Part shown: positions 50,306 to 63,873 of the stretch, one piece after another
How positions within the stretch are numbered: the first letter of the stretch is position 1
How the letters are laid out: each line of letters begins with the position of its first letter
Source of the DNA: an uncultured Pelagibacteraceae bacterium
GTDB taxonomy: Bacteria; Pseudomonadota; Alphaproteobacteria; Pelagibacterales; Pelagibacteraceae
Direction of reading: 5' to 3'
NCBI GenBank assembly: GCA_902633335.1
Contig: CACPFY010000005.1
Coordinates: 1-64,000, forward strand
Length of the DNA: 64,000 nt
The notes under the pieces: generated by a model
What the model saw: only the letters and a program-made list of their open reading frames with translations
Database searches by the model: none
What the model was told of the DNA's origin: nothing
Position numbers and translations under genes: made by a program

Positions 50306-50391
50306 GGAGGGGTACCAAAGCGGTCAAATGGGGCGGGCTGTAAACCCGTTGACTTCGGTCTTCGAAAGTTCGAATCTTTCCCCCTCCACCA
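50306..50391 (+). tRNA. tRNA-Tyr (anticodon GTA)
   Basis: This is an 86-nt class II tRNA. The acceptor stem GGAGGGG pairs with CCCCTCC, the anticodon loop CTGTAAA holds GTA, a long variable arm is present, as expected for bacterial tRNA-Tyr, and the T arm contains GTTCGAATC. CCA is encoded. It begins a run tRNA-Tyr, tRNA-Gly, tuf, tRNA-Trp in one direction. The roughly 100 bases upstream contain an imperfect TTGTTG/TATCCC promoter-like pair only. Confidence 0.97.
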
Positions 50392-50437
50392 TACTTAAAA
50401 TCGTTTGATAATTAAGAGCGTGATAAGTTTGGATTTT

Positions 50438-50511
50438 GCGGGTGTAGTTCAATGGTAGAACGCTAGCCTTCCAAGCTGGATGTAAGGGTTCGATTCCCTT
50501 TACCCGCTCCA
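50438..50511 (+). tRNA. tRNA-Gly (anticodon TCC)
   Basis: A 74-nt cloverleaf: acceptor GCGGGTG with TACCCGC (one G-T pair), D arm with TTCAATGGTAGAA, anticodon loop CTTCCAA with TCC, T arm GGGTTCGATTCCC and encoded CCA. TCC reads GGA and GGG codons. It lies 46 bases after tRNA-Tyr and 26 bases before tuf, and is probably cut from the same transcript. Confidence 0.97.
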
Positions 50512-50537
50512 AAAAAAAATTAAAAAAGGAAAAAAAA

Positions 50538-51728
50538 ATGTCGAAGGAAAAGTTTAATAGAAGTAAACCGCATTGTAACATAGGAACAATCGGACACGTA
50601 GATCACGGTAAAACAACACTAACTGCTGCTATTACAAAAGTACTTGCAGAAGCAGGGGGAGCAAAATTTGTAGCTTATGATCAAATCGATAAAGCTCCTG
50701 AAGAAAAAGAAAGAGGTATTACTATATCTACAGCACACGTAGAATATGAAACTGCAAAAAGACACTACGCACACGTTGATTGTCCAGGACATGCTGACTA
50801 CGTAAAAAATATGATCACTGGTGCAGCTCAAATGGATGGAGCTATTTTAGTTGTTAATGCAGCAGATGGTCCAATGCCACAAACTAGAGAACACATTCTA
50901 TTAGCTCGTCAAGTTGGAGTTCCTGCTATTGTAGTTTTTCTAAATAAAATAGATACTGTTAAAGACAAAGAGTTAATCGACCTAGTTGAGGAAGAAATAA
51001 GAGAACTATTAACCTCTTACAAATTTCCAGGCGACAAAATTCCAATTATAAAAGGTTCAGCGTTAAATGCAGTCGAAGGAAAAGACGAAGCGACAGGTAA
51101 AAATGCGATTATGGAATTAATGAAAGCAGTTGATGAAACAATTCCACAGCCCGATAGACCAAAAGATAAACCTTTTTTAATGCCGGTAGAAGATGTTTTC
51201 TCTATTTCAGGAAGAGGAACAGTAGTTACTGGAAGAGTTGAACAAGGGGTAATTAAAGTCGGTGAAGAAATTGAAATAATAGGAATAACAGATACTAAAA
51301 AATCAGTTTGTACTGGCGTAGAAATGTTTAGAAAACTTTTGGATAGCGGTGAAGCAGGTGATAACATTGGTGCATTGTTAAGAGGTGTTGAGAGAGATGA
51401 TGTGCAGAGAGGACAAGTTCTTGCTAAACCAGGTTCTGTTACACCACATACCGAGTTTGAATGCCAAGCATACATTCTTAAAAAAGAAGAGGGTGGAAGA
51501 CATACTCCTTTTTTCACTAAATACAGACCTCAGTTTTATTTTAGAACAACTGATGTAACTGGAGAAGTAACTCTTCCATCAGGCACAGAAATGGTAATGC
51601 CTGGGGATGACGGAAAATTTAGTGTAAAATTAATTACTCCGATTGCTATGAGCCAAAACTTAAATTTTGCCATTAGAGAAGGTGGAAAAACAGTAGGAGC
51701 TGGCGTAGTAACAAAGATAATTAAATAG
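50538..51728 (+). CDS. tuf: Elongation factor Tu
   Basis: EF-Tu delivers aminoacyl-tRNA to the ribosome. The 396 residues include the G1 loop GHVDHGKTT, the switch I region [13 protein letters not shown]3 [12 protein letters not shown] with catalytic histidine, G4 NKID, and the domain II and III signatures [13 protein letters not shown] and [13 protein letters not shown] good Shine-Dalgarno (AAGGA) lies about eight bases before the ATG, unlike most genes here, fitting strong expression. The stop codon TAG (51726-51728) shares its last two bases with the mature 5' end of tRNA-Trp. Confidence 0.98.
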
Positions 51729-51802
51729 GAGCGTAGCTCAATTGGTAGAGCGCCGGTCTCCAAAACCGGAGGCTGTGGGTTCGAGTCCCTCCGCTCCTGC
51801 CA
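51727..51802 (+). tRNA. tRNA-Trp (anticodon CCA), starting inside the tuf stop codon
   Basis: A 76-nt cloverleaf: acceptor AGGAGCG pairs fully with CGCTCCT, D arm GCTCAATTGGTAGAGC, anticodon loop CTCCAAA with CCA, T arm GGGTTCGAGTCCC, discriminator G and encoded CCA. The A-T pair at 1-72 is intact, so position 1 is 51727, the second base of the tuf TAG stop. The tuf-tRNA-Trp-secE order is common, but this overlap is unusually tight. Confidence 0.97.
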
Positions 51803-51816
51803 ATTAAATTAGTATT

Positions 51817-52008
51817 ATGAGAAATCCTTTAAAATTTTTACAGGAAGTAAAACAGGAGGCTTTTAGAATTTCTTGGCCTACGAAAAAAGATACTATGACT
51901 GGTGCGTTAATGGTATTTGGACTAGCCTCGATTGCGGCGATTTTCTTTTTGCTTTTAGACCAAATATTAAGATTTTTATTAAATATAGTACTTAACTTAA
52001 GCTTTTAA
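51817..52008 (+). CDS. secE: Preprotein translocase subunit SecE
   Basis: SecE is the clamp subunit of the SecYEG channel. The 63-residue protein has the single-helix form found outside the enteric bacteria: an amphipathic segment with FLQEVKQEAFRISWPTKKDT (the conserved SWP region), then one membrane helix (about residues 29-58). It lies between tRNA-Trp and nusG, the standard order, with no gap before nusG. Confidence 0.95.
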   Translation: MRNPLKFLQEVKQEAFRISWPTKKDTMTGALMVFGLASIAAIFFLLLDQILRFLLNIVLNLSF

Positions 52009-52533
52009 ATGAATTGGTACATTGTACAAGCATACTCCGGTTTTGAAAAAAAAGTCGTTGAAAGCATTAAAGAGGAGCTTAAAAGACATAAACTAGAAGG
52101 TAGTTTAGATCAACTCCTAATTCCAACTCATCAAGTAACTGAGGTAAAAAAAGGAAAGAGAACAAAAAAAGAAAAAAAATATTTTCCTGGATATGTTTTA
52201 ATAAAAATTGAACTCACAAAACAGATTTATCATTTAATTAAAAATTTACAAAAAGTTAGTGGCTTTTTAGGATCATCAGATAAACCAACACCAATATCTG
52301 ATAATGAAATTAAAAGAATTTTAGGTCAGGTATCAGAAAGTGCAATCAACCAAAAATCTGGTATAAGCTTTGAAATTGGAGAAAAAGTCAAAGTTTGTGA
52401 CGGACCATTCGCTTCTTTTACTGGTTTGATTGAACAAATTGATGAAGAAAAGTCTAGACTAAAGGTATCAGTTTCGATATTTGGTAGGGCTACTCCGGTA
52501 GATTTAGAATTTAACCAGGTAGAAAAGAATTAG
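52009..52533 (+). CDS. nusG: Transcription termination/antitermination factor NusG
   Basis: NusG binds RNA polymerase and links transcription to Rho or to the ribosome. The 174-residue protein has the NGN domain ([18 protein letters not shown] at the start, [11 protein letters not shown] near residue 58) and a C-terminal KOW domain ([22 protein letters not shown]) near residue 123. The start directly follows secE, and rplK begins two bases after its stop. Length and order are typical. Confidence 0.97.
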
Positions 52534-52535
52534 TT

Positions 52536-52961
52536 ATGGCAAAAGAAATAACAGGATATGTGAAGCTACAAATTAAAGGTGGACAGGCAAATCCAGCTCC
52601 GCCAGTTGGTCCCGCTCTTGGACAAAGGGGTATAAATATAATGGAATTTTGTAAAGCCTTTAACGAGAAAACAAAATCTTTCATGGGCAAACCAGTACCA
52701 GTCGTAATTACGGTTTATAAAGATAAAAAATTTGACTTTGTAATTAAATCTCCTCCAGCATCACATTTTATTAGAGAAGCTGCCAAGTTAAAAAGTGGAT
52801 CAAAAGAACCTGGTAGAGTTGTAGCAGGATCAATAACCATGAAACAAGCTGAAGCAATAGCTAAAGAAAAAATGAAAGATTTAAATGCCTTTGATTTGAA
52901 AGAAGCTACGAAAATTATTTGTGGCTCAGCTAGATCAATGGGTATAGAGGTAAAAGAATGA
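52536..52961 (+). CDS. rplK: 50S ribosomal protein L11
   Basis: L11 forms part of the GTPase-associated centre and supports stringent factor activation. [26 protein letters not shown] at the N-terminus is diagnostic, and the C-terminal RNA-binding domain ends with [13 protein letters not shown]. The 141-residue length is normal. It overlaps rplA by 4 bp. The usual L1-based autoregulation of the L11-L1 operon would act here, but with only two bases before the gene no separate leader structure is visible. Confidence 0.98.
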
Positions 52962-53644
52962 AAAAAAAATCAAAAAGATTTAAATTATTAGAAAAGAAAA
53001 AAATTAAAGAAAGACTATCATTAGACAAATCTATAGATTTAATTAAAGAAACATGCACTTCAAAAATGGAAGAGTCTATCGATTTATCAATTAGAATAAA
53101 CACAAAACAATCAAAAGGTGGAGATTTTAACTTAAGAACAGTGGTAAAATTACCCCATCCAAATGGAAAAAAATTTAAAATTGCTGTTTTATGTGAGCAA
53201 GAAAAAGTAGAAGAAGCAAAAAAGATTGGTGCAGATATAGCCGGTTCTCAGGAATTGTTAGATCAAATTTCAAGCGGTAAATTGAATTTTGATAAATTAA
53301 TTTGCACACCTGGAATGATGAGCAAAATTGGGAAACTAGGAAAAATTCTTGGACCAAAAGGACTAATGCCAAATCCGAAACTAGGTACTGTTTCTAATGA
53401 TCTCAAGAAATCAATAACAGATCTTAAAACAGGTTTAGTAGAAATTAAAAATGACAAAGATGGTAATTTGGCTTTATCTATTGGAAGAAAAAAATTTTCA
53501 AAAGAAAAATTACAAGAAAATTATAATTTTTTTGTTGATTTTTTAAAAAAAGAAAAGCCTGAGAATATAAAAGGAGAGTTTATAAAAAATATCTTTTTAA
53601 CATCAACAATGGGAATATCTTGTAAAATAGGGAGCAAAAACTAG
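52958..53644 (+). CDS. rplA: 50S ribosomal protein L1
   Basis: L1 forms the mobile stalk that moves E-site tRNA and represses its own operon. Family signatures are [14 protein letters not shown] near residue 57 and the central [20 protein letters not shown] near residue 117. The 228-residue length is normal. It overlaps rplK by 4 bp, and rplJ follows after two bases with no sign of a separate rplJ leader, although many bacteria have one. Confidence 0.97.
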
Positions 53645-53646
53645 TT

Positions 53647-54159
53647 ATGATGAGTAAAGAAAATAAAAAAAGCTATATTGAAGAAATGAAAAAAAATTTT
53701 TCTTCAAATAATTCTGTTATGATTGCTCAGTATCAAGGTTTAAATGTTAAAGAACTTGATGAATTAAGAAAACAATTAAGAGAAAAAGGTATACTTTTTA
53801 AAATAACAAAAAACAGGATTACAAAAATTGCAATAAAAGAAACTCCTGTAAAAGATCTAGAAAAATATTTTTCTGGTCCCACAGCTGCAGCTCTTTCATC
53901 TGATCCAATAACTACGGCAAAAATTCTTACAAAATTTGCAAAATCTCATGAAAAATTAAAAATAATAGCTGGCTTTATGGATGGTAAGGTTTTAGATCAA
54001 AAAGAGGTGGCTATTATCGCCACATTACCTTCTTTAGAGGAAGCAAGGGCTAAAATTGTAGGTATTTTGTCATCACCTGCTCAAAAATTAGTAAGTATTT
54101 TACTTGCACCTGGCTCAAAAATTGCTAATTTAGCGCGCGCAAAGGCTTTAAAAAAATAA
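53647..54159 (+). CDS. rplJ: 50S ribosomal protein L10
   Basis: L10 anchors L7/L12 dimers to the ribosome. The N-terminal globular domain (SVMIAQYQGLNVKELDELRKQLRE, then FKITKNRITKIAI) is followed by a C-terminal helix (LVSILLAPGSKIANLARAKA) that binds L7/L12. The protein has 170 residues. Two neighbouring ATG codons (53647 and 53650) are equally plausible starts. In many bacteria the rplJ leader binds L10-L7/L12 for autoregulation; here only two bases separate it from rplA, so any such site would have to lie within rplA. Confidence 0.95.
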   Translation: MMSKENKKSYIEEMKKNFSSNNSVMIAQYQGLNVKELDELRKQLREKGILFKITKNRITKIAIKETPVKDLEKYFSGPTAAALSSDPITTAKILTKFAKSHEKLKIIAGFMDGKVLDQKEVAIIATLPSLEEARAKIVGILSSPAQKLVSILLAPGSKIANLARAKALKK

Positions 54160-54174
54160 TTACAAGGATCACTA

Positions 54175-54543
54175 ATGTCAGACTTAAACAAAATTATAGA
54201 AGATTTATCAAAATTAACTGTTGTAGAGGCAGCAGAACTTTCAAAACAATTAGAGGAAAAATGGGGTGTAACTGCAGCAGCTCCTGTTGCAGCAGCAGCA
54301 GCACCGGGTGCAGCACCAGCGGGTGAAGAAAAATCAGAATTTTCACTTTTTTTAGCAGCCGCGGGAGATAAAAAAATTAATGTTATTAAAGAAGTTAGAG
54401 CCATAACAGGTTTAGGTTTAAAAGAGGCAAAAGATTTAGTTGAAGGAGCTCCAAAAGAAATTAAAGCAGGTGTTCCTAAAAAAGAAGCCGACGAATTTAA
54501 GAAAAAACTTGAAGCTGCCGGCGCTAAAGTAGAATTAAAGTAA
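54175..54543 (+). CDS. rplL: 50S ribosomal protein L7/L12
   Basis: L7/L12 forms the flexible stalk that recruits translation factors. The N-terminal dimerisation domain (residues 1-33) is followed by an alanine- and proline-rich hinge (about residues 40-55, [19 protein letters not shown]) and the conserved C-terminal domain with [20 protein letters not shown]. The 122-residue length is standard. ACAAGGATCACTAATG gives a moderate Shine-Dalgarno (AAGGA). A 9-bp hairpin follows in the gap to rpoB. Confidence 0.98.
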
Positions 54544-54562
54544 ATTAAAATTTAAGACTAGA

Positions 54563-54588
54563 TTATTACGAGGTTGATTTCGTAATAA
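54563..54588 (+). promoter_or_regulatory. Hairpin in the rplL-rpoB gap
   Basis: TTATTACGA (54563-54571) pairs perfectly with TCGTAATAA (54580-54588) around an eight-base loop, GGTTGATT. It lies 11 bases before the rpoB ATG and is not followed by a T tract, so it does not look like a classical terminator. In E. coli the rplL-rpoB gap holds an attenuator and an RNase III site; an analogous processing or attenuation element is a fair inference. Confidence 0.55.
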
Positions 54589-54598
54589 AAATTAATTA

Positions 54599-57500
54599 AT
54601 GGAATTATCTTTTACTCAAAAAAAAAGTATTAGAAAAAGTTTTGGTAAACTTAAAGAAGGTTTATCAATCCCAAACTTAATAGAAGTTCAAAAAAATTCA
54701 TATCAAGAATTTTTATCCTCTAAAGCTCTTAACGAACAAATGGATATCCTTTCAAAAGGTATCGACAAAGTCTTCAAAAGTATTTTTCCTATTGATGATA
54801 ACTCGGATAAATCTACTCTTGAATACATTTCATACAAATTAGAAAAACCTAAGTTTGATGTTCTTGAGTGCAAGCAAAGAAGCTTGACGTATTCTGCATC
54901 TTTAAAAGCCAATCTTAGATTGGTAGTTTATGACATTGATACAGAAAATAATACAAAACAAATTTTATCTGCCAAAGAACAAGAAGTTTTTATTGGGGAA
55001 TTGCCCTTAATGACTCCTAGCGGTACTTTTGTTGTAAACGGCGTAGAGAGAGTAGTAGTCAATCAAATGCATAGAAGTCCTGGTGTTTTTTTTGATCACG
55101 ATAAAGGAAAAACCCATTCAAGTGGTAAATTATTGTTTAATTGCAGAATAATTCCAGGTAGAGGATCGTGGTTAGATTTTGAATTTGATCCAAAAGATAT
55201 TCTATATTTTAGAATTGATAGAAAAAAAAAGCTTCCAATAACAACAATATTATTTGCATTAGATTTATCAAAGGAAAAAATTATCAAAAGTTTTTATACA
55301 ACAAATAAATATAGTTTCGATGAGAAAAATAATAAATGGATTACAAATTTTGATGTTGATAAATTTAAAAGACCAGTGAAGTTAGGTTTTGATTTAGTTG
55401 ACGCAAAAACTAATAAAAAAATCTTATCAAAAGGTGAAAAATTAAATATTGTAATTGCAAGGAAACTTGAAGAAAAGGGTTTAAAAGAAATATTCATTAC
55501 TAATGAAGAGTTAATTAGTAAATATACCGCGAAAGATATTGTAGACAAAAATAATAATTTGATACTCTCATCAGGATCAGACTTAAACAATGAAGTGATC
55601 GAAAAAATTAGAAATGAAGAGTTAAAAATTTTAGAGCTAGTTAATATTGATCCTATTAACAAAGGACCATATTTACTTGAAACATTAAAAATTGACAAAA
55701 ATTCAAATAAAGCCGAAGCCCTTAATGATATTTACAAAGTATTAAGACCAGGCGAAGCTCCGACAATTGAAATTGCTGAAGATGTTTTTAAAAACTTATA
55801 TTTTAATAAAGATAGATACGATCTATCTGAGGTAGGAAGGGTTAAATTAAACTCAAAACTAAATTTAAAAAGAGACGCTAAAGATAGCACTTTAAATTCA
55901 GAAGATATAATCGCAATTATTAAATTTATGCTCGATTTAAGAGATGGAAAAGGCGAAGTTGATGATATCGATCATTTAGGTAATAGAAGAGTGAGATCAG
56001 TTGGTGAACTCGTTGAAAATCAATTTAGAATTGGCCTTTTAAGGATGGAAAGAACTGTTAAAGAAAAAATGTCCACTTTTTTAGAAATTGAGTCCGCGAT
56101 GCCTCAAGATTTAATTAACGCTAAACCTATAACAACCTCTTTAAAAGATTTTTTCGCAACTTCTCAGTTATCTCAATTTATGGATCAAACTAATCCACTA
56201 TCAGAGATTACCCATAAAAGACGGGTTTCAGCGTTAGGACCTGGAGGTCTGACAAGAGAAAGAGCTGGGTTTGAAGTTAGAGATGTTCATCCTACCCATT
56301 ATGGAAGAATATGCCCAATCGAAACTCCTGAAGGTCCAAACATAGGATTGATTAACAGTCTAGCAACATACTGTAGAGTAAATAAATTTGGTTATATTGA
56401 AAGTCCTTATAAAAAAGTTATTAAAGGTAAGGTGACTAATGAAATTAAATACCTTTCAGCTATTGAAGAGGAGAAGTTTACAATCGCTCAAGCTAATTCA
56501 GTTTTAGATAAAAATGGATCTTTCGAAGAAGAGTTAGTTGCTTGTAGAAAAAATTTAAATTTTCAATTATCAAATAAAGATAATATAGACTACATTGACG
56601 TATCTCCAAAACAACTAGTCTCAGTAGCAGCAGCTTTAATTCCTTTTCTTGAAAATGATGATGCTAACCGCGCACTAATGGGTTCAAATATGATGAGGCA
56701 AGCAGTACCCTTATTAAAACCAGAGTCACCTTTAGTTGGAACAGGCATAGAATCCGATGTTGCTTTAGATTCTGGTGTAACAATTGTTGCAAAAAGAAGC
56801 GGTGTAGTAGACAAAATTGATGGAAAAAGAATTGTTGTTAAAGCAACTGAAGTTAAAGATCTATCACAGTCTGCTGTTGACATATATAATCTTTCTAAAT
56901 TTAAAAGATCTAATCAGAATACATGTATAAATCAAAAACCTTTAGTTAAAGTTGGTGATGAAATTAAAAAAGGAGATATAATCGCAGACGGTCCTGCAAC
57001 TAAACTTGGTGAATTAGCTTTGGGAAAAAATGTAACAGTAGCATTTATGCCATGGCAAGGTTACAACTTTGAAGACTCTATTTTAATATCAGAAAGGTGT
57101 GTAACTGACGATGTCTTTACCTCAATTCATATAGAAGAATATGAGTCTATGGCTCGTGATACAAAGTTAGGAGCTGAGGAGATAACAAGAGATATTCCAA
57201 ATGTTAGTGAGGAAAGTTTAAGAAATTTAGATGAGTCCGGAATAGTTTATGTTGGTGCTGAAGTAAAACCAAGTGATATATTAGTAGGAAAAGTTACCCC
57301 TAAGAGCGAAACTTCATCTAGTCCGGAGGAAAAACTTTTAAGATCCATTTTTGGAGAAAAAGCTACAGATGTAAGAGACTCCTCTTTGAAGCTCCCTTCT
57401 GGAAGCGCAGGTGTTGTTATTGATGTTAGAGTTTTCAATAGACATGGTATTGAAAAAGACGAAAGATCCATAGCAATAGAAAGATCAGAAATTGAATTAG

Positions 57501-58691: not shown

Positions 58692-61600
58692 ATGGAAAAA
58701 AATATAACTAAAAATTTTGATAATAAAAATCTTGCATCAGAGAATAATTTTGGAAGTATAAAAATTACTTTAGCTAGCCCTGATAAAATCAAATCTTGGT
58801 CATTTGGTGAAATAAAAAAACCTGAGACTATAAACTATAGAACTTTTAGACCAGAAAAAGACGGTCTATTTTGCTCAAGAATATTTGGTCCTGTAAAAGA
58901 CTATGAGTGTCTTTGTGGAAAGTATAAAAGAATGAAGTTTAGAGGAATAATTTGTGAGAAGTGTGGTGTAGAAGTCACTAAATCAAATGTTAGACGTGAA
59001 AGAATGGGGCACATTGATTTAGCATGTCCTGTGGCTCATATTTGGTTCTTAAAATCACTTCCAAGCAGAATTTCGCTAGCTATCGATATGAAATTAAAAG
59101 AAGTTGAAAAGGTTCTTTATTTTGAGAGCTTTATAGTCATTGAACCAGGTTTAACAAAACTTAAAAAAGGACAACTTTTAAATGAAGAAGAACTCATAAA
59201 ATCCCAAGATGAATTTGGAGAGGATGCTTTTACTGCTGGCATAGGAGCTGAAGCAGTAAGAGAAATACTTATCAATCTTGATCTCCAGTCCGAACAAAAA
59301 AAGCTTAGAGAGTCATTAAAAGAAGTTAAATCAAAAGTAACCGAAGAAAGAACGATAAAAAGATTAAAATTAATAGAGTCTTTTATTAATTCTGGAAATA
59401 AACCGGAATGGATGATTTTGACCACTGTCCCAGTTATTCCACCAGAACTTAGACCATTAGTTCCTTTAGATGGTGGAAGATTTGCTACCTCAGATCTTAA
59501 TGATTTGTATAGAAGGGTAATTAATAGAAATAATAGACTTAAGAGACTTCTAGATCTTAAAGCTCCAGATATAATAGTAAGAAACGAAAAAAGAATGCTT
59601 CAAGAGTCTGTCGACGCCCTGTTTGATAACGGAAGAAGAGGTAGAGTTATCACTGGAACAGGAAAAAGACCTCTAAAATCTTTAGCTGAGATGCTTAAAG
59701 GTAAACAAGGAAGGTTTAGACAAAATTTACTTGGAAAAAGAGTAGATTATTCCGGAAGATCGGTAATAGTTGTAGGTCCGGAACTTAAATTACATCAATG
59801 CGGACTTCCTAAAAAAATGGCTTTAGAGCTTTTTAAACCTTTCTTGTATGCAAGGTTAGATAAATTGGGTTTAGCCACTACTATTAAGCAAGCTAAAAGA
59901 TTGGTGGAAAAGGAAAAAAGTGAGGTTTGGGATGCGCTAGAATACATTATAAGGGAACATCCTGTTATATTAAATAGAGCACCAACTCTACACAGATTGG
60001 GCGTTCAAGCATTTGAAGCAAAGTTAATAGAGGGAAATGCTATTGAACTTCACCCATTAGTATGTGCAGCATTTAATGCAGATTTTGACGGAGATCAAAT
60101 GGCAGTTCATATACCTTTAAGTCTTGAAGCGCAACTAGAGGCTAGAGTGTTAATGATGTCCACAAATAATATATTAAGCCCTTCAAACGGTAAACCTATT
60201 ATTGTTCCCAGCCAAGACATTGTGTTAGGAATTTATTATTTATCACAATCTTCAAAATCTGATAAGCCCAAAGGAATATTTTCGAATATTGATGAAATTG
60301 AACAAGCTTTAGAAAATAAGTCTATAAGTCTTCACACTAAGATTATATCAATATTTGAAACAGTTGATCAAAATAATAAAGTTATAAAACAAAAATACTC
60401 TAGTACAGCAGGAAGGTTTTTATTAGCTAACTTGTTACCAAAAAATTCAAATATAAAATTCACTTTGGTTGATAAACTACTAACAAAAAAAAATGTTTCA
60501 GAGGTAATAGATACAATATTTAGATATTGCGGACAAAAAGAAACTGTTATTTTTTGCGATAAAATTAAAACATTAGGTTTTAAGCATGCATTTAAGGCTG
60601 GAATTTCTTTTGGTAAAGATGATCTAATTATACCTAAGACAAAAGAAAATTTGATAAATGACACAAAGAAAAAAATTGAAGAATATGAAAAACAATATTC
60701 AGATGGATTAATTACTAGAGGTGAAAAATATAATAAAGTCGTAGACATATGGTCTAAATGTACAGATACGGTGGCTAATGAAATGATGAGGGAAATTTCA
60801 TCAGCAGAAAAAGTTTACGAAAATGACAGGATAGAGACTAATTCTGTATATATGATGGCTGACTCTGGCGCTAGAGGCTCACAAGCACAAATGAAGCAAC
60901 TTGCTGGAATGAGAGGTCTTATTGCTAAACCTTCAGGAGAAATTATAGAAACACCCATTATATCAAATTTCAAAGAAGGTCTGTCAGTTCTAGAATATTT
61001 TAATTCTACTCACGGAGCAAGAAAAGGACTAGCTGATACTGCATTGAAAACAGCAAACTCCGGATATTTAACTAGAAGACTTTGCGATGTAGCTCAAGAC
61101 ATTCAAATAACTTCTGCAGAATGTGATATTAAAAAAAGATCCTCAATTAATATTTCTGAAATAATTGAAGGTGGAAATATCTTGGTTAGCCTATCTGAAA
61201 GAGTTTTAGGAAGAGTTATAGCTGAGAATATTAAACACCCTATAAGTGGTGAAGTTTTAATCAACAAAGGAAACCTCATTGATGAATCAGATTGTGAAAA
61301 AATAGATGCAGCCGGAGTAAAATCTGTCCAAGTATATTCCGTTATTACTTGTGCATCACAAAAAGGAGTATGCGCAACGTGTTATGGAAGAGATTTATCA
61401 AGAGGAAAACTTGTAAGTATAGGTGAAGCAATAGGTATGATAGCCGCTCAATCAATTGGAGAGCCAGGAACTCAATTAACAATGAGAACTTTCCACGTGG
61501 GTGGAACAGCACAAATTAAAGAAGAGTCTCAAATTGTCTCTCAAACAAAAGGTAAATTAAAGATTATTAACAAAAATTTAATTGAAGACTCTAAGAAAAA

Positions 61601-62864
61601 TATAATAGTTATGGGAAGAAACACGCAACTAAGTATAGAGGACGATAACAAAAGGCAATTAGCCATATATAAAGTAAATTATGGTTCTAAACTATTTTTC
61701 AAAGACGGAGATACAATAGACAAAGGAAAAAAAATTGCTGAGTGGGATCCTTATACATTACCAGTAATTGCTGAAACCTCAGGTAATGTTAATTATATGG
61801 ATTTAGTTGAAGGTACATCTATTACAGAAACTTTAGACGATGCCACAGGTATATCGTCCAAATCAGTTACTGATTGGAAGTCAGTTAGCAAAAATTCTGA
61901 ACTAAAACCTAGACTTACATTGAGAAGTGACAAGGGTGAAATCATAAAAAAAGCTGATGGTAATGAAGCGAGATATTATTTAGTACCTGATACAATTCTT
62001 TCAGTAAAAGACGGTCAAAAAGTTTCAGCTGGTGATGTATTAGCTAGATTACCCAAAGAAACTTCAAAAACAAAAGATATAACTGGAGGTTTACCAAGAG
62101 TAGCAGAATTATTCGAAGCCAGAAGACCAAAAGATAGTGCTATAATAGCTGAAAATGACGGAGTAATTGAATTTGGAAAAGAAGTAAGAGGTAAACAAAA
62201 AATTTCTATTGTTTCCTCTAAAGGCGAAACATCTAATTATTTAATCCCTAAAGGAAAGCATGTAAATTTTAATCAAGGAGAAAAAATAAAAAAAGGGGAA
62301 TATCTATTAGATGGAAGTCCCGCCCCACATGACATTCTTAGAATATTAGGTGTAGAAAAATTAACAGAATATTTTGTAAGTGAAGTTCAAGAGGTATATA
62401 GACTACAAGGGGTTGTTATTAACGATAAACACATTGAAACCATAGTTAGACAAATGCTTAAAAAAGTTGAAGTAAAAGACCCAGGTGACTCTGAACTTTT
62501 ATTAGGTGAAATTATTGATTTAATTGATATAAAAAATATTAATGAAAAATTATCAAATAGTAAGAAAAAAATAGTTTCATTTGAGAGAGTTCTACTTGGT
62601 ATTACAAAAGCTTCTTTACAAACAAACTCATTTATTTCTGCGGCTTCCTTCCAAGAAACTACTAGAGTATTAACCGACGCCTCAATTAAAGGTAAGGTCG
62701 ATAACTTAGAAGGTCTCAAGGAGAATGTTATTGTTGGTAGATTAGTTCCAGCAGGCACAGGCTTAACAAAAATGGGCTGGGACAAAGAGGCACAAAAAGA
62801 AGATAAGCTAAGATTAGAGGAATTAAAAAAAGAAGAGCAAGAAAGTGCTCCTGCAACCGAATAA
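58692..62864 (+). CDS. rpoC: RNA polymerase beta' subunit
   Basis: This is the beta' subunit, 1390 residues. The N-terminal zinc site is C-L-C-G-K and C-E-K-C-G near residues 75-93. The catalytic magnesium motif is [12 protein letters not shown] near residue 460. The bridge helix and trigger loop region has [18 protein letters not shown] and [21 protein letters not shown], and the second zinc site ends with [11 protein letters not shown] near residue 900. The C-terminus ends with an acidic tail ([10 protein letters not shown]). It is followed by the 162-base rpsL promoter and leader region. Confidence 0.98.
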
Positions 62865-62900
62865 TCCTTAATTTTTAACTAATAAAATAGCCAAAAAACG

Positions 62901-62928
62901 TTGACTTTTCTAGCTTCGATGCTAGTTT
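62901..62928 (+). promoter_or_regulatory. Candidate promoter of the rpsL-rpsG-fusA operon
   Basis: TTGACT (62901-62906) is one base from the -35 consensus. TAGTTT (62923-62928) after 16 bases is a weak -10 element. Transcription would start near 62935, about 92 bases before the rpsL ATG and just ahead of the structured leader, which supports the call. A 5-bp inverted repeat (62910-62914 with 62921-62925) lies in the spacer and could bind a regulator or be chance. Confidence 0.5.
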
Positions 62929-62943
62929 AGCGCAATTTTGAAA

Positions 62944-63002
62944 GTTAGAAGTAAGGTTGGATTTAGCCTTAAACACTAACCAAGACCTCAAAGAGGCTAT
63001 CC
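62944..63002 (+). promoter_or_regulatory. Structured rpsL leader with two alternative folds
   Basis: Fold A: 62944-62948 (GTTAG) pairs with 62976-62980 (CTAAC), enclosing hairpin 62952-62959/62964-62971 (TAAGG with CCTTA plus three inner pairs), followed by hairpin 62986-62989/62993-62996 (CCTC-AAA-GAGG). Fold B: GGAT (62959-62962) pairs with ATCC (62999-63002), and AGCC (62965-62968) pairs with GGCT (62995-62998), with two unpaired bases between. Fold B breaks both hairpins of fold A. An AAAGAGG tract within this region is 30 bases from the ATG. Regulation by a ribosomal protein of the operon is an inference. Confidence 0.55.
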
Positions 63003-63026
63003 TTTCTTTTACTTCAAAATAAAATT

Positions 63027-63398
63027 ATGCCGACTATTAACCAGTTGATTAAAAAAGGAAGAGTTAAACCTTTAATGAGAAATAAGGTTCCTGCTTTACA
63101 AAAACAACCTTTAAAGAGAGGTGTTTGTGTAAAAGTATATACAACAACTCCAAAGAAGCCTAATTCGGCATTAAGGAAAGTTGCAAGAGTTAGACTGTCT
63201 AATGGATTTGAGGTTACAGCTTATATACCTGGTGAAGGACATAATTTACAGGAGCACTCTGTAGTGATGATAAGAGGTGGAAGAGTAAAAGATTTACCTG
63301 GAGTACGATATCATATCCTAAGAGGTAATCTTGATACACAAGGTGTGGCGAATAGAAAGAAAAGACGTTCACTATACGGAACTAAAAAACCTAAATAA
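63027..63398 (+). CDS. rpsL: 30S ribosomal protein S12
   Basis: S12 sits at the decoding centre. It starts with [33 protein letters not shown] holds the lysine region where streptomycin-resistance changes occur (wild-type lysines here). [17 protein letters not shown] carries the aspartate that is methylthiolated in many bacteria. The 123-residue length is standard. No Shine-Dalgarno sequence lies in the 20 bases before the ATG, so initiation may depend on the leader fold. rpsG follows after four bases. Confidence 0.98.
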
Positions 63399-63402
63399 AA
63401 CA

Positions 63403-63873
63403 ATGTCCAGAAAAAGAAAAGCCCCTATAAGAAAAATATACCCTGATCCAAAATATAGATCTGTGGTGGTTTCAAAATTCATTAATTCTATAATGTATGA
63501 TGGAAAAAGATCAACAGCAGAAAAAATCTTATACGATGCTTTAGACAAAATTAAACAAAAAGGCAATGAAGATCCAATCAAAGTATTTAACAATGCAATT
63601 AGCAATGTTAAACCAAACTTAGAAGTTCGATCAAGAAGAGTTGGAGGTGCTACTTACCAAGTGCCAGTAGAAGTAAAACCTAATAGAGGTCAAGCTTTAG
63701 CTTTAAGATGGCTTATAGATGCCACGAGAAAAAGAAAAAACAAAACTATGTCCGAAAAACTTTATTTTGAAATATTAGATGCATCTCAAAATAAAGGTTC
63801 AGCAATAAAAAAAAGAGAAGATACTCATAAAATGGCTGAGTCAAATAAGGCTTTCGCACACTTTAGGTGGTAG
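63403..63873 (+). CDS. rpsG: 30S ribosomal protein S7
   Basis: S7 nucleates assembly of the 30S head and is the autoregulatory repressor of the str operon in E. coli. The correct start is the ATG at 63403 ([18 protein letters not shown]); an earlier in-frame ATG at 63331 is inside rpsL and adds unrelated residues. Family signatures are [21 protein letters not shown] near residue 26 and [17 protein letters not shown] near residue 76. The 156-residue length is standard. fusA begins three bases after the TAG stop. Confidence 0.98.

Follow-up and report, generated by a model that had tools for sequence, protein, structure and literature searches.

A conserved leader upstream of rpsL in Pelagibacteraceae, probably a ribosomal-protein leader related to RF01823 with an alternative fold at the genus level

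The closest described relative of the leader analyzed here is the rpsL motif RF01823 (Rfam name rspL) of Candidatus Pelagibacter ubique HTCC1062, where it lies between rpoC and rpsL (PMC2704228). The published motif was reported from Pelagibacter and metagenomes only, and its structure does not contain the helix that we call H1 below (PMC2704228). In one of the family genomes compared here, rpsL occupies minus-strand positions 1073820-1074188 and abuts the intergenic region 1074189-1074359 given for HTCC1062 in that description. Two other systems concern the same operon or the same gene: in E. coli the ribosomal protein S7 represses the str operon from a site between rpsL and rpsG (PMC10931766), and the rpsL leaders of other genera, among them rpsL_ricks (RF01774), have been predicted to be transcription attenuators (PMC2965389).

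Our analysis began from a stretch of 64,000 nucleotides, called the window throughout, from an uncultured bacterium of the same family as HTCC1062, the Pelagibacteraceae. In the window, rpoC (58692-62864) ends upstream of the leader, rpsL (63027-63398, + strand), which encodes ribosomal protein S12 and has close homologues in most relatives searched, is the first gene behind it, and rpsG (63403-63873) follows four bases 3' of rpsL. A promoter for rpsL is predicted from a -35 element, TTGACT (62901-62906, + strand), and a -10 element, TAGTTT (62923-62928, + strand); this type, TTGACN-N16-TAGTTT, is kept with its N16 spacing in 80 of 81 same-genus leaders. The G+C-rich discriminator AGCGCA (62929-62934) lies directly 3' of the -10 element, and the transcript is predicted from these elements to begin at about 62934, one base 5' of the first strand of helix P1, so that the entire leader would be the structured element. 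An earlier reading of the window from its letters alone, here the sequence-only reading, had proposed a regulatory leader and had named a transcription start downstream of 62980 as contrary to it; the promoter kept in 80 of the 81 leaders predicts the upstream start instead. The same reading saw no Shine-Dalgarno sequence close to the rpsL ATG and took this as making control of initiation by structure plausible. We likewise found none upstream of the ATG, but the argument carries little weight, because, of the 56 open reading frames of at least 120 aa in the window, only 9 are preceded by an SD-like 4-mer, and initiation without a Shine-Dalgarno sequence looks usual in this genome. Nearly all genus members have such a G+C-rich discriminator (ACGGCA or AGCGCA) in their rpsL promoter, an expected feature of ppGpp-sensitive promoters. 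A CTAGC/GCTAG hairpin over the promoter was set aside, as it is not kept in relatives.

When the leader was compared with Rfam at relaxed thresholds, RF01823 was the sole sensible match. It aligns over its full length to 62927-63023 on the + strand with 26.5 bits (E 0.018), below the gathering score of 37, and three same-genus genomes also have a match below the cut-off immediately 5' of rpsL. Judged by this alignment and by position, the leader is a diverged homologue of RF01823 and not a member by curated score, a relation that the sequence-only reading had missed. The two elements share their site between rpoC and rpsL, a helix P1 whose strands lie at the two ends of the leader, a hairpin that corresponds to P2 of RF01823 (H2 here) and, in an alignment across genera that includes HTCC1062, a conserved AAC at J2-3. 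They differ in several respects. Here a helix H1 is formed, which the Rfam structure does not have; the P3 stem and its conserved loop are absent, the linker varying in length and sequence and its candidate third stems being 51-66% paired across the genus; P1 abuts the ATG, whereas it lies farther upstream in Pelagibacter; and H2 competes with the linker, a competition that is not seen in Pelagibacter. The outer part of the bulged P1, which in RF01823 closes a three-stem junction, is 98% paired in the genus, while its inner part conflicts with H1 and, weakly supported (z -0.59), was rejected as a structure of the genus. Most Pelagibacter leaders have one mismatch in H1, which may explain why H1 is absent from the published structure. 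The linkers of Pelagibacter leaders (L237-L256) carry a nearly invariant AAUAAC-CUGUCA-GUUAUU hairpin, simpler than the third stem of RF01823.

The structure common to these leaders, which we call the core, consists of H1 and H2. In the window, on the + strand, the H1 strands GUUAG (62944-62948) and CUAAC (62976-62980) are paired in 100% of the 81 genus leaders, and they enclose H2, whose strands UAAGGUUG (A1, 62952-62959) and UAGCCUUA (A2, 62964-62971) are 98% paired in the genus and covary across the family. Between A2 and the second strand of H1 lies the internal-loop strand AACA (62972-62975, + strand), of which AAC is near-invariant family-wide. Outside the core, P1 joins AUUUUGAA (62935-62942, + strand) to UUCAAAAU (63013-63020, + strand), which stops six bases 5' of the rpsL ATG; 98% of its cells are paired in the 81 leaders and it is mostly invariant. 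The fold with this core, which we call fold one, is the minimum-energy fold of the window leader at -19.7 kcal/mol. The whole leader is barely more stable than its shuffles (z -1.65, 12 of 200 shuffles), and folding energy alone is therefore insufficient as proof.

Comparison of 12 family genera and the sister family yielded a constant layout for the core: the 5-bp H1 leads into a short 5' strand whose last base is G, an H2 that opens with a U-A pair comes next, and then AAC, which at most two bases separate from the 3' strand of H1. H1 occurs between genera as GUUAG/CUAAC, GUUAA/UUAAC, GUUAU/AUAAC, GGUAG/CUACC, AGUAG/CUACU and others, with compensatory changes. Over 75 cores the pairing of H1 and H2 reaches 84%, and double-change cells number 132, compared with 39 in shuffled alignments (0 of 500 as high) and with a count far lower in slid controls. 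The covariation analysis of related rpsL leaders that the sequence-only reading had recommended thus gave strong compensatory change between genera for H1 and H2, and its helix enclosing a hairpin (62944-62948/62976-62980 around 62952-62959/62964-62971) proved to be the conserved core. That reading had also staked its proposal on at least one of its folds being conserved in close relatives, and fold one is kept family-wide.

The core was found in all 12 sampled family genera and was also seen in the sister family. A core model, which was built from family members and so demonstrates presence rather than an independent discovery, matches 84 of 87 good genomes of the family and is found in 12 of 14 genera; the window genome has a single good site (E 5e-10; next 1.2), and in a class-wide sample the model matches only family members. 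The listed same-genus genomes without a match are those in which rpsL was not found or was cut. SAR11 bacteria rank with the most abundant marine cells and, to our knowledge, few of their regulators have been described; the comparison extends the core of the published motif to 12 of 14 family genera and the sister family, and revises its structure by adding H1.

Two folds had been drawn for the window by the sequence-only reading as mutually exclusive, the second being an 8-bp helix (62959-62962 and 62965-62968 with 62995-63002, + strand) that destroys both the H1-enclosed hairpin and the separate CCTC/GAGG hairpin of the first (CCUC 62986-62989 with GAGG 62993-62996, + strand). Pairing and energy folding confirmed that both folds are possible in the window: the 8-bp helix has eight Watson-Crick pairs, and a fold forced to contain it reaches -17.5 kcal/mol against -19.7 kcal/mol for fold one, so the two are close in energy. 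Neither helix is conserved, however. All eight pairs of the helix are present in one of 81 genus members, the window itself, and not in close relatives, its GGAT/ATCC half is 41% paired across the 81 genus leaders, and the four pairs of the hairpin are complete in 5 of 81. The sequence-only reading was therefore right about the kind of element and wrong about two of its three helices; mutual exclusion survives in the form of a different alternative that uses the same segments and finds support genus-wide.

This alternative involves the variable linker (62981-63012, + strand in the window), in which B1 (AGGCU) and B2 (UCCUUU) can pair with both strands of H2. Across the genus B1 (GGYU) is complementary to the 3' strand of H2 (78% paired) and B2 (CCUUA) to its 5' strand (89%). 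With H1 and H2 excluded from forming, the best folds averaged -17.3 kcal/mol over 97 genus leaders, compared with -12.9 kcal/mol when the linkers were replaced by dinucleotide shuffles with P1 kept; the mean z was -1.73, p was below 0.1 in 61% of the leaders, and the means of 31 clades differ from zero (p 3e-13). The resulting fold is one long hairpin with a stability near that of fold one, in which the linker is paired to A1 in 94 of 97 leaders and to A2 in 80 of 97. The shuffles leave shared ancestry in place, and the conserved B2 may reflect a single ancient coincidence or be retained for another reason. A rather unlikely alternative is that only the core and P1 are functional, as would be the case in Pelagibacter, and that the alternative pairing is a by-product of a linker that resembles the H2 strands in an A+T-rich RNA. 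It would account for RNAalifold returning only H1 and H2 on the 81 genus leaders, for the missing linker signal in Pelagibacter (z -0.06; sister family +0.8) and for the lack of excess stability in the window, whose own alternative fold is no better than with shuffled linkers (p 0.31, z -0.64), and in its nearest relatives, where the fold is likewise weak. It does not account for an alternative fold that is excessively stable in most genus members, nor for the negative z values of each of the ten further genera of the family, Pelagibacter apart, to which the test was applied (-0.4 to -3.5). Leaders given the linker of a different clade lose an average of 1.1 kcal/mol (p 0.027 by t-test, 0.050 by Wilcoxon), which favours each leader's own linker, and leaders L072 and L108 present a compensatory case in which GUGAGG in A1 faces CUCAC in the linker. 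A tree-aware test gave a site-specific p of 0.005 at the columns of the alternative fold (33-83) and weaker values at others; in the tree-aware covariation test of all pairs inside the genus no pair was significant after correction. Coevolution in the alternative fold is thus modest, and the evidence that a second fold exists in the genus is good but not conclusive. A third linker stem (AAGG-loop-CCUU), 66% paired and without covariation, was rejected. In a subclade of the genus (L060, L109-L112) the linker contains an extra hairpin, CCUUG/CAAGG or UCUGAUA/UAUCAGA, that apparently covaries.

Folds that exclude each other would also fit a transcription attenuator with an antiterminator, as predicted upstream of rpsL elsewhere in bacteria. 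The likeness extends to the gene, since those leaders precede rpsL and have proposed alternative structures (PMC2965389), and in the sister family a T run follows the core hairpin. In the window leader, however, the terminator is missing: no intrinsic terminator was found on the + strand between the promoter and rpsL, no terminator-like site exists on that strand in 62600-63400, and a U-run follows neither fold. The Pelagibacter element itself fails the terminator criteria of PMC2965389 according to that paper. The absence of a U-run terminator on the + strand leaves attenuation unsupported and makes control of translation the better reading; we regard an attenuator here as very improbable. 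Where the sequence-only reading offered a regulatory switch or an attenuator, the structured leader with competing folds is supported and the attenuator is not. RF01774 gave no match to the window leader at E up to 10. Attenuation by a leader peptide was also rejected, as the leader has no ATG, and a TTG frame at 62957-63022 (found by eye) was set aside because the stretch varies in length among relatives; so was mimicry of rRNA, given that the window assembly has no 16S gene and the HTCC1062 copy shows only a partial match.

Control of translation by a ribosomal protein invites comparison with the S7 site of the E. coli str operon (PMC10931766). The operon content is the same, S7 is encoded by the next gene, and we propose that here, too, a ribosomal protein controls the operon. 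The E. coli site, however, has another structure and another place, between rpsL and rpsG, where only four bases (63398 to 63403) exist here, as the sequence-only reading had correctly noted in separating the leader from that site; and the published motif is without resemblance to S7, S8 or L4 sites (PMC2704228). We therefore give repression of the E. coli type almost no credence.

The 5' UTR of this ribosomal-protein operon contains a conserved, covarying structure, as is general for ribosomal-protein leaders, and the leader is most likely an autogenous one that acts on translation. Taken as a whole, it is probably a conserved ribosomal-protein leader, a diverged homologue of the published motif with a revised family-wide core and with an alternative fold at the level of the genus. 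The RNA would fold from its first base, the core (H1, the asymmetric AAC internal loop and H2) forming first during transcription and serving as a putative binding site for a ribosomal protein encoded in the operon, while P1 would join the very first bases of the mRNA to bases ending six nucleotides before the ATG. Unless the core is bound, the linker would displace H2 by pairing both of its strands, giving a long hairpin continuous with P1. We consider it reasonably probable that binding of the protein to the core sets the balance between the two folds and thereby rpsL translation. The ligand is likely S12, S7 or another protein of the operon, a proposal drawn by analogy from the general behaviour of ribosomal-protein leaders (PMC2704228, PMC10931766); we infer the binding itself, which protein binds, and which of the two states is the active one. 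For the start region (-15 to +13) the opening cost, as a genus mean, is 3.0 kcal/mol in fold one and 6.5 kcal/mol in fold two, and fold two is therefore the more closed state. By these energies the state with ligand on the core would be the more open of the two, opposite to the usual repression by surplus protein. It is possible, though we advance it only tentatively, that the rpsL leader acts as a true bistable switch in a Pelagibacteraceae genus that is the sister of Pelagibacter, and probably in several more. The protein-binding core, shared family-wide, would then be displaced by a fast-evolving linker carrying copies of both its stem strands, P1 would connect the mRNA 5' end with the start-codon region, and the second state would have been lost or never present in Pelagibacter.

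Two further observations concern neighbouring sequence and the sister family. In the stretch before rpoB (50306-54600 in the window) Rfam matches at gathering scores are to tRNAs only, with none to an L10 or L1 leader. In the sister family (leaders L114-L121) the core hairpin is followed directly by 4-6 T (e.g. CGCTACTTTTT), it resembles a small terminator about 40 nt past the predicted start, and the rpsL genes have a GGAG-type ribosome site; from its sequence, the core may act there by transcription attenuation.
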